Source: Runella sp.
GTDB taxonomy: Bacteria > Bacteroidota > Bacteroidia > Cytophagales > Spirosomataceae
Length of the DNA stretch: 64,000 nucleotides
Assembly (NCBI GenBank): GCA_023254175.1
Contig: JALQYJ010000111.1
Location: 1-64,000 of the forward strand
Direction of reading: 5' to 3'
Made by a program: the position numbers and the translations under genes. How positions within the stretch are numbered: the stretch's first letter is position 1; every line of letters begins with the position of its first letter. The notes beneath the pieces were generated by a model. That model ran no database searches. It was not told where the DNA came from and was given only the letters and a program-made list of their open reading frames with translations. Shown here piece after piece: positions 11,462-49,117 of the stretch.

Positions 11462-13576
11462 TTACTCGCCCAACATTTCCAAAAACTCCGTTTCAGAAAT
11501 CATTTTGACGCCCAATTTTGTGGCTTTATTGAGTTTGGAGGCACCTGCTTTTTCACCGACAATCAGGAAGTTAAGTTTTCCTGAAACCCCGCTAACAAGT
11601 TTTCCGCCGTTTGCTTCAATCTTGTTTTCGAGCTGTTCGCGGGTCATGCTGGCAAACGTGCCTGAGTATAAGAACGATTTACCCTCTAGCTGATTCGACT
11701 CCATCAACACAGGAAGATTGTCGGTTTCCATTTTGAGGCCTGCCACTCGGAGACGTTCGATGTAGGCACGGTTTTGGTCGTCGGCAAAATATTCTATCAA
11801 GCTTTGGGCAATCTTGTCGCCGATTTCGGGTACGTTACGCAGGGCTTCCAAGTCAGCATTCATCAGCGCGTCGATGTTTTTGAAATACGCAGCCAATTTT
11901 TCGGCTACTGTAGCACCAACAAAACGAATCCCGATGGCAAACAATACTTGCTTGAAAGGAACTTGTTTAGATTGTTCAATTCCCTTCAAAATATTCTCAA
12001 CCGTCTTTTCCTTGAACCCAATGCGTTTGGTTTTTCCAGTTTCTTCGTCGGTAATGACTTTTTCCAAACCAAACAGTTTTTCGTAAGTAAGGTCGTACAA
12101 ATCAGCAGGGGTTTGAAGCAGACCTTTGTCGAACAATAATTCAATTTTTCCTTCGCCTAAACTGTCCAAATTCATGGCTTTACGGTGGATAAAATGCTCG
12201 ATTTTACCACGAATTTGGGGAGGACAACCACGGTCGTTGGGGCAATAATGGTTGGCTTCGCCTTCCTTGCGAATGAGCGGTGTGGTGCATTCGGGGCAGT
12301 GCGTAGGGAAGTGGATGGGAGTTAACAGACGGGACGTCCGTGCCACATGGTCTACGCCCGTAATTTTTGGAATGATTTCACCACCTTTTTCCACAAAAAC
12401 CACATCGTTGAGCATCAGGCCGAGGCGTTCGATTTCGTTGGCATTGTGCAAAGAAGCACGCTTCACGCGGGTGCCCGAGAGCCAAAGCCCTTTGCCGTCT
12501 TCATTGAGGTTGTCTAAGTTGGCCACGGGCGTCAAAGCCCCTGTTCGCCCGACTTGGTACGAAACGGAACGCAAAACGCCAGGCTTGTTTTCTGCTTTGT
12601 ATTTGTAGGCAATCGCCCAGCGTGGACTTTTGGCCGTAAAGCCTAATTCGCGTTGTTGGGCGAGTGAATTTATTTTGATAACAATCCCGTCCGTCGCCAA
12701 AGGAAGGGTATGACGTTTTTCTTCCCACTGGTGAATGTAAGCCAAGACGTCGTCGATGGTAGCGCATTTCTCCCAGGAAGGCGACACGTTGAATCCCCAC
12801 GCTTTGAGGGCTTCGAGGCTCTCGGAATGGGTTTCAAACATGTCTTCATCGCTTAAAAAATAGTACACATAACAATCTAATCCCCGACGTGCGGACTCCG
12901 CAGAATCTTGAAGTTTGAATGCCCCCGATGCTGCATTGCGGGGGTTGGCGTAGGTCTGCTCGTCGGCCTCTTCGAGTTCTTTGTTGAGTTTTTTAAAAGA
13001 TGAAATAGGCATAAAACCTTCCCCACGAACTTCAAATAGCCCTAGCCCCCTAACCCCCAATGGGGGAACAATATTAGTGCCCCCATTGGGGGTTAGGGGG
13101 CTATTTATCTTCAAGGGTAATGTCTTTATGGTTCGGATGTTGGCCGTGATATCATCGCCGCGCACGCCATCGCCCCGAGTTACACCTCGTACTAAAACGC
13201 CATTCTCGTAGGTCATACTGAGTGAAATTCCGTCGAATTTTAATTCGCAAACATACTCAAAATCAGTGCCGTTAAGCCCTTTTCTAACCCGTTCGTCAAA
13301 GTCGCGCAGGTCTTGCTCGTTGTACGTATTTCCCAACGAAAGCATGGGGTAGCGGTGCTCGACGGTTGCAAAATTTTTAGTAATAGTACCCCCTACGCGT
13401 TGGGTGGGGGAATCGGGGCGTTTGAAGTCAGGATATTGATTTTCGAGTGAAACAAGCTCTTCTAAAAGTTGGTCAAACTCGTAATCGCTGATTTCAGAAA
13501 CGCTATCTTGGTAATACCGATGATTGTAAAAATTGAGGCGTTCGGTCAGTTCGTTAATGCGGTCGGCTACAGACAT
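11462..13576 (-). CDS. ligA: NAD-dependent DNA ligase, with an in-frame palindromic insertion
   Basis: A 704-aa LigA, sealing nicks during replication with NAD+. Visible in order: domain Ia (DYEFDQLLEEL), adenylation motif ELKFDG with Lys113, RGVTRGDGVRGDD, TDGIVIKIN, the OB fold, a four-cysteine zinc finger (CPEC...C...C, about 430-455), helix-hairpin-helix repeats (FVGATVAEKLA, NVPEIGDKIAQSL) and a C-terminal BRCT domain (LEGKSFLYSGTF). The oddity is at residues about 158-179 (SPLTPNGG...PPLGVRGLG): an extra peptide between TLPLKI and FEVRGEGF, where family members have only a few residues. This stretch is encoded by a 61-base near-perfect palindrome. The reading frame is intact, so the enzyme is presumably functional. 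Confidence 0.96.
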   Translation of the reverse strand: MSVADRINELTERLNFYNHRYYQDSVSEISDYEFDQLLEELVSLENQYPDFKRPDSPTQRVGGTITKNFATVEHRYPMLSLGNTYNEQDLRDFDERVRKGLNGTDFEYVCELKFDGISLSMTYENGVLVRGVTRGDGVRGDDITANIRTIKTLPLKINSPLTPNGGTNIVPPLGVRGLGLFEVRGEGFMPISSFKKLNKELEEADEQTYANPRNAASGAFKLQDSAESARRGLDCYVYYFLSDEDMFETHSESLEALKAWGFNVSPSWEKCATIDDVLAYIHQWEEKRHTLPLATDGIVIKINSLAQQRELGFTAKSPRWAIAYKYKAENKPGVLRSVSYQVGRTGALTPVANLDNLNEDGKGLWLSGTRVKRASLHNANEIERLGLMLNDVVFVEKGGEIIPKITGVDHVARTSRLLTPIHFPTHCPECTTPLIRKEGEANHYCPNDRGCPPQIRGKIEHFIHRKAMNLDSLGEGKIELLFDKGLLQTPADLYDLTYEKLFGLEKVITDEETGKTKRIGFKEKTVENILKGIEQSKQVPFKQVLFAIGIRFVGATVAEKLAAYFKNIDALMNADLEALRNVPEIGDKIAQSLIEYFADDQNRAYIERLRVAGLKMETDNLPVLMESNQLEGKSFLYSGTFASMTREQLENKIEANGGKLVSGVSGKLNFLIVGEKAGASKLNKATKLGVKMISETEFLEMLGE
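13043..13103. repeat. Palindromic element (24-bp perfect inverted repeat) inside ligA
   Basis: Arms 13043-13066 and 13080-13103 are perfect reverse complements (each starts tagccccctaaccccc when read inward), with a 13-base loop (aacaatattagtg). Each arm itself ends in a near-palindrome (cccccaatggggg). Because of the symmetry, both strands encode almost the same peptide (SPLTPNGG..xVPPLGVRGL). No second copy was seen in this window. It behaves like a protein-coding palindromic element of the kind known from Rickettsia. Confidence 0.9.
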
Positions 13577-46124: not shown

Positions 46125-46177
46125 GACAGCGTCCATCTTTTTACCAATTATACATAGATAAAAAGATGGACGCTGTC
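46125..46177. repeat. Perfect 19-bp inverted repeat, possible MITE or element end
   Basis: gacagcgtccatcttttta (46125-46143) and taaaaagatggacgctgtc (46159-46177) are perfect complements around a 15-base loop. There is no T-run after either arm, so it is not a typical terminator. The right arm contains the ATG of a small HTH-like remnant. Confidence 0.75.
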
Positions 46178-49066: not shown

Positions 49067-49117
49067 CACAAAAAAATAGGGTCGTCACTTACAAAGTGAC
49101 GACCCTATTTTTTTGTG
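49067..49117. terminator. Long bidirectional terminator after the cold-shock gene
   Basis: A perfect 24-base stem (arms 49067-49090 and 49094-49117, cores agggtcgtcactt / aagtgacgaccct) with a 3-base loop and A/T runs at its base. It serves the cold-shock gene and, on the minus strand, the ZIP transporter. Confidence 0.93.

Follow-up and report, generated by a model that had tools for sequence, protein, structure and literature searches.

A palindromic element within ligA

The 64-kb window, by which we mean the whole stretch of Runella sp. DNA that was analysed, carries a gene for an NAD-dependent DNA ligase (ligA). Its product scored 744.7 bits against the NCBIfam LigA profile NF005932 in a profile search (cut-off 369). 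Inside this gene lies a palindromic element of 61 nt (13043-13103), consisting of two 24-nt arms around a 13-nt spacer (Table 1); the arms reach 27 nt at 96% identity. The original prediction had placed an element in frame in ligA, with arms that are perfect reverse complements and with a defined peptide on each strand. The ligA ORF was indeed open, recomputation returned the same perfect arms, and retranslation gave the same peptides, SPLTPNGGTNIVPPLGVRGL on the minus strand and SPLTPNGGTILVPPLGVRGL on the plus strand, so that SPLTPNGGT..VPPLGVRGL is read from either strand. It had also been suggested that the element is free of stops in both orientations and can enter a gene either way round. 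This holds for one frame per strand, within which entry in both orientations is possible, but not for the two remaining frames, in which the full element contains stops on each strand. Since these stops shut the other frames, the frame bias is not evidence of selection on the peptide, and we rejected that explanation of the frame preference. The arm pattern matched twice in the window, compared with a mean of 0.01 in shuffled sequences. The predicted RNA hairpin of the element had a folding energy of -58.7 kcal/mol (z = -7.7), equalled by none of 200 shuffles. Two further perfect inverted repeats of the window, both probably terminators, are included in Table 1.

Table 1 Features of the ligA locus and other inverted repeats in the window
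Feature	Position	Strand	Remarks
ligA, NAD-dependent DNA ligase, 704 aa	11462..13576	-	open ORF; insert in adenylation domain
Left arm, TAGCCCCCTAACCCCCAATGGGGG	13043..13066	+	minus-strand reading ...PPLGVRGL
Spacer (hairpin loop), 13 nt	13067..13079		between the arms
Right arm	13080..13103	-	perfect reverse complement of left arm; minus-strand reading SPLTPNGG...
Codons for SPLTPNGGTNIVPPLGVRGL	13043..13102	-	LigA residues 159-178
SPLTPNGGTNIVPPLGVR			peptide stretch within the predicted LigA insert
Perfect inverted repeat, 19 nt	46125..46177		between two minus-strand ORFs; probably a terminator
Perfect inverted repeat, 24 nt	49067..49117		A/T-runs; between ORFs; probably a terminator

The closest named homologues of this LigA were those of R. 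defluvii (94% identity) and R. limosa (93%). Between fixed anchors, the loop that holds the element has 24 residues here and 16, 16, 9, 19, 14 and 19 residues in six other Runella. The original estimate of about 16-20 added residues was therefore too high, as the net gain is only +8 relative to the two nearest relatives and +5 to +15 relative to the four other Runella; the protein is 15 residues longer at this site than PDB 2owo, which we take to be the E. coli LigA. No palindromic element, and no hairpin above controls, was found in LigA of the six other Runella, and the element was absent from all 25 aligned LigA homologues (from 80 fetched). The prediction had named an unrelated LigA segment of the same length as evidence against it; unrelated segments do occur at this place, but in the six Runella their lengths are different (9-19 residues). 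The loop is variable by nature, and the element may have taken the place of some loop sequence besides lengthening it; from the sequences, insertion and replacement in such a loop cannot be distinguished at the base level. LigA of this genome keeps the columns that are invariant across the 28 sequences of the alignment. When the insert was mapped on an AlphaFold2 model of LigA residues 1-335 (mean pLDDT 84.4, pTM 0.70), as the prediction had proposed, residues 160-176 had pLDDT values below 50 and directly preceded a strand (180-188) containing FEVRGEGF. The low model confidence at these residues is consistent with a floppy loop, short of proof. In the same loop of two other LigA sequences (L085 and L087), a segment SEDSGV(K/R)SEGKLG resembles another short repeat-derived insert; its hairpin score was not above controls.

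A family of arms shared among genes and species

The exact 21-nt arm occurs six times at five places in this draft genome (199 contigs), including ligA. The pattern CCCCTAACCCCCNANNGGGG with up to two mismatches gave 31 matches compared with one in the reversed control, and a relaxed arm pattern with up to one mismatch gave 86 raw matches, again compared with one. Hand merging reduced the 86 to 55 arms at 43 places. The possibility raised beforehand that no other copies exist was thereby dismissed, with the exact arm at four further places and relaxed arms at 43 in all. An arm is a unit of about 22-24 nt with the consensus AGCCCCCYAACCCCCAATGGGGG, in itself a small hairpin. This consensus was built from 56 aligned instances (merged by script, slightly differently from the 55 merged by hand), and its foot before the C-run reads A in 40, G in 36 and C in 42 of the 56. 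Some arms stand alone and others form convergent pairs with a short spacer in between; where arms lay no more than 150 nt apart, 11 of 12 neighbours were arranged plus then minus, one self-overlap being left out of the count. Some arms (L243 in R. limosa selD, L284 and L280) contain a nested module, GGACGGTACGCCGCGCGG or close to it, forming composite palindromes.

According to gene labels assigned by hand, 16 of the 43 places lie in frame inside 15 conserved genes. These genes are ligA, gcvP, valS, metH, selD, icmF (two places) and those for a CusA-type pump, an acyl-CoA dehydrogenase-like protein, an inositol monophosphatase, a GH3/PBP4B protein, a GH106 protein, a glucose/sorbosone dehydrogenase, an FrsA-like esterase, a MadB-like ATPase and an UnbV/ASPIC protein. 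Three places were set aside as native or shared with both relatives: the matches in Tll0287-like and YdiJ-like genes are common to both, and that in an AMP-ligase is presumably a motif of this protein family. The remaining 24 are outside ORFs of at least 120 aa, near an ORF end, or in short doubtful ORFs. A decayed 17th in-frame copy, not counted among the 43 places, was found in the CoA-transferase gene scoAB. Hairpin scores were compared with random windows of the same locus at 17 sites, 14 of which were seen in this genome; the GH106 protein, the acyl-CoA dehydrogenase and one UnbV protein were outside this test. At nine of the 14 sites, at most 5% of the controls matched the score, and at ligA none did. 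Five fell short of this level (gcvP 0.07, frsA 0.21, metH 0.34, gsdh 0.78, madB 0.98), partly because single arms form weak hairpins.

Exact arms were also searched in three other genomes, with none in G008 and 32 in G006 and G009 together, 30 of which had loci and made up 25 elements. Fifteen of the 25 were in frame and had over 70 ORF residues on each side (compared with 16 of 43 places inside genes in this genome), nine were outside ORFs or at their ends, and one was at the C-terminus of what we take to be urocanate hydratase. The host genes in G006 and G009 include kdpA, ABC transporters and, by resemblance to the proteins of this genome, gcvP, icmF and GH106. Across the 12 other Runella genomes, raw arm matches numbered 9-247 each versus 0-6 in the reversed control, the lowest genomes barely exceeding it (10 versus 4 in G012). 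Within the family, 73 of 150 genomes (own genus included) had an exact pattern match, compared with five control matches in all. A draw across the phylum gave matches in 34 of 395 genomes, 22 inside the class and 12 outside; because about 15 genomes outside the class had a control match, there is no signal there. The loop bases of the arm vary by lineage (AAT, AGA, TAAA). One region (G003:C26:54978-55683) resembles a tandem array, with six arm-like units that share a strand and are spaced 120-156 nt apart.

Joined queries located the orthologues of the inserted genes in R. defluvii (G150) and R. limosa (G151), and their loops were compared using hairpin controls of the same locus. Judging by matching coordinates, G150 and G151 are apparently identical to the assemblies G002 and G003 and therefore not further genomes. 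In the relatives, the loops contained nothing similar or the same arm family, and a few contained a different palindrome. In selD, arms are present here, the R. limosa loop has a hairpin score of 41, and none was found in R. defluvii; the selD loop length of this genome (22) was not used, being too short after an early match of the right anchor. The valS and esterase loops have a similar peptide in R. limosa and none in R. defluvii. In gcvP, a single arm here corresponds to a good arm pair in G006, a longer form without a significant hairpin in R. limosa, and no arm in R. defluvii. For cusA, the arms here are matched by a variant of such a pair in R. limosa and by none in R. defluvii, and the GH3 loop is palindromic in all three. 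Other palindromes occupy the unbV loop in R. defluvii and R. limosa, with none here and the arm family in G006. The kdpA loop holds the arm family in G006, another palindrome in R. limosa and a weaker one in R. defluvii (0.07). The unbV hairpins and that of R. limosa kdpA beat their controls. At the second icmF site, both relatives have another repeat-like peptide with hairpins not significant at 5%. Arms in gcvP, icmF and GH106 are present in G006 as well as here. The peptides SPERRGARG, LLAGEG and PSLQGRAGEG were noticed in the icmF, kdpA and unbV loops of the relatives (L235, L236, L285 and L283). These site states across Runella show that elements come, decay and at some loops get replaced. 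The loops are too diverged from those of relatives for an empty site to be defined, and no target-site duplication was established.

Possible origin and mobility of the element

In the 13 Runella genomes, 20 matches to a DUF559 nuclease were found in 11 genomes, with none in this one. Eight of the 15 strong matches are embedded in host ORFs: two in uvrA (G002, G003), four in mnmE (G006, G009, G012, G008) and two in scoAB (G006, G009), at loci L320 (1417-1862), L313, L309, L310, L316, L317, L321 and L325. The uvrA and mnmE genes of this genome are presumably empty, as judged from the absence of DUF559 matches. DUF559 copies are more alike within a host gene (mnmE 68-77%, scoAB 74%, uvrA 97%) than between sites (32-51%), which suggests a single old event at each site. 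Flanking repeats were scored for the 15 strong matches, leaving out the five weakest. Among the papers found in searches on DUF559, as judged from titles and the beginnings of abstracts, none dealt with in-frame insertion.

With copies, frames, convergent pairing, presence or absence between species and the reuse of some sites all observed directly, we regard the ligA insert as a recently made copy of a small mobile element, palindromic, non-autonomous and similar to REP/BIME, that occurs in Runella and in some of its relatives within the family (probability about 0.88). The strong ligA hairpin would also suit a functional RNA or DNA signal, such as a terminator, an attenuator or an RNase III site, located in ligA by chance. 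We regard this as very improbable, as copies lie within unrelated genes and are missing from orthologues, including ligA of the relatives; the terminator in particular was rejected, since no T-run follows the palindrome. An artefact of assembly or contamination, conceivable for a draft genome, is practically discounted by the open ligA ORF and by other Runella assemblies with the arm family in frame at other loci. The arms could instead be true REP/BIME elements that depend on a Y1 (HUH) REP-associated transposase (RAYT) for their movement. REPs are likewise high-copy hairpin units of 20-40 nt that stand singly or in inverted pairs, and the arms agree with them in unit size, hairpin form, inverted pairing and copy number. 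REPs lie mainly outside genes; of the Runella elements, 15 of 25 with the exact arm in G006 and G009, but 16 of 43 places in this genome, are inside genes. Y1_Tnp matches were found in all 13 Runella genomes (60 in all, one in this genome), some with the YxxNP motif of the REP class and about a third of the loci with no motif found. However, no arm (up to two mismatches) was detected near any of the 60 matches, within 1.2-1.5 kb or less at contig ends. The 60 scanned loci cover all 60 matches, although L358 repeats L211 and L357 spans two neighbouring matches. As roughly one nearby arm is expected by chance from the counts, this indicates a lack of linkage and not avoidance. In addition, arm and Y1 counts are uncorrelated over the 13 genomes (rho 0.07, p 0.83), and the consensus foot is AGC, lacking the GTAG or CGTC tag of REPs. 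We therefore think it unlikely that these are REPs proper.

Alternatively, there may be a larger selfish element with the structure arm, DUF559 nuclease, arm, of which the short palindromes are the ends, the relics or the landing sites, an idea that we put forward only tentatively. A nuclease might then cut at or near palindromes or tolerant loops, repair might copy the element in, and loss of the nuclease might leave a short palindrome, a course of events that we likewise hold to be doubtful. Pointing this way, the scoAB CoA-transferase gene of G009 and G006 has a plus arm, DUF559 and a minus arm in one open frame, and the same site in this genome has a decayed arm pair with a hairpin score of 11, reached by none of its controls. 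All eight embedded DUF559 copies are flanked on both sides by inverted repeats scoring 14-44 (maximum 12 in 300 random controls), compared with 21 for one of seven free-standing copies and 6-12 for the others. However, this genome has a perfect-arm copy and no DUF559 match, and the link between arm family and nuclease is one orthologous site in two genomes; the uvrA and mnmE copies are bracketed by other inverted repeats. The scoAB site of R. defluvii and R. limosa is occupied by 28 residues of a different sequence, with no significant hairpin (0.60 and 0.58). Inverted repeats scoring at least 17 also flank nine of 24 scored Y1 loci and are therefore not special to DUF559. Arm and DUF559 counts show no clear correlation over the 13 genomes (rho 0.46-0.47, p 0.11), and it may simply be that palindromes entered the linkers next to a DUF559 insert. 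In its fullest form, which we consider rather improbable, a DUF559 gene between palindromic ends would insert in frame into uvrA, mnmE and the CoA-transferase gene and, with no splicing, be translated as an additional domain within the host protein. Its non-autonomous offspring or landing sites would be the short palindromes of ligA and many other enzymes, and the tolerant loops would be shared docking sites, making this a new kind of selfish element.

Under the preferred reading of a small non-autonomous REP/BIME-like element, copies may arise by transposition or by hairpin-templated copying in trans. With one open frame per strand, in-frame copies in tolerant enzyme loops could persist as an extra, presumably near-neutral peptide. 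Copies in other frames would be purged or kept between genes, purging being a likely explanation of the frame bias. Different species carry different elements in some of the loops. No transposition event was seen and no enzyme was linked to the arms in these genomes. The Y1 transposases are physically unlinked to the arms, and DUF559, standing between arms at one site, is the best-placed candidate for moving them, though a candidate only.

Relation to known palindromic elements

The likeness to Rickettsia palindromic elements (RPEs) proposed in the original prediction was borne out in the way the elements work, although the Runella element is shorter. RPEs, also known from Wolbachia, are palindromic elements of 105-146 bp with many copies and open frames that lie in frame in conserved protein genes (PMC2229807). 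The Runella element is about 60 bp or a single arm of 22-24 nt and occurs in another phylum; the comparison is with published descriptions. As with RPEs, in-frame copies inside conserved genes (16 of 43 places) are absent from orthologues, namely from ligA in six of six Runella, with a mixed picture at other sites. Unlike RPEs, some Runella loops hold other palindromes in relatives, and one site has a nuclease between arms. In an RPE-bearing gmk, the host protein is reported to stay active with a changed affinity (PMC2229807).

Intragenic REPs are also known, many of them in genes for DNA synthesis and repair and one in the DNA ligase of Opitutus terrae (PMC3733652). This 2013 survey mentions CGTC repeats in Bacteroidetes and intragenic REPs in other phyla, and a survey of Y1 proteins describes a subclass from Bacteroidetes whose structures are atypical (PMC6006769). 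MITEs such as ERIC/RU-1 and Correia/NEMIS are non-autonomous and some lie in frame in genes (PMC2759123, PMC2229807). The Runella pairs have terminal inverted repeats as MITEs do, with single arms occurring as well; neither a target duplication nor a parent insertion sequence was established, and two genomes have arm-DUF559-arm at one site. Nematomorpha mitochondria also have perfect inverted repeats within their coding sequences, where both arms encode conserved protein parts (PMC6649704), whereas the Runella arms encode extra peptide. The original statement that no well-described counterpart is known in Bacteroidota stands within the open literature, apart from the CGTC repeats: we found no description there of a protein-coding palindromic element from this phylum, most subscription papers lying outside that search.

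Selfish DNA thus seems to be lengthening ordinary proteins in Runella. Palindromic elements that code for protein are best known from the intracellular Rickettsia and Wolbachia, and the Runella element adds free-living Bacteroidota to their range. Across a dozen Runella species, orthologous loops are open to comparison in the empty, the short-element and, at one site, the nuclease-bearing state. This makes two old questions testable, namely by what route such palindromes move and whether the peptides they encode bring a benefit or are neutral. Odd inserts of 10-30 residues (SPLTPNGG, PPLGVRG and others) in the proteins of this group may be mobile-element peptide.
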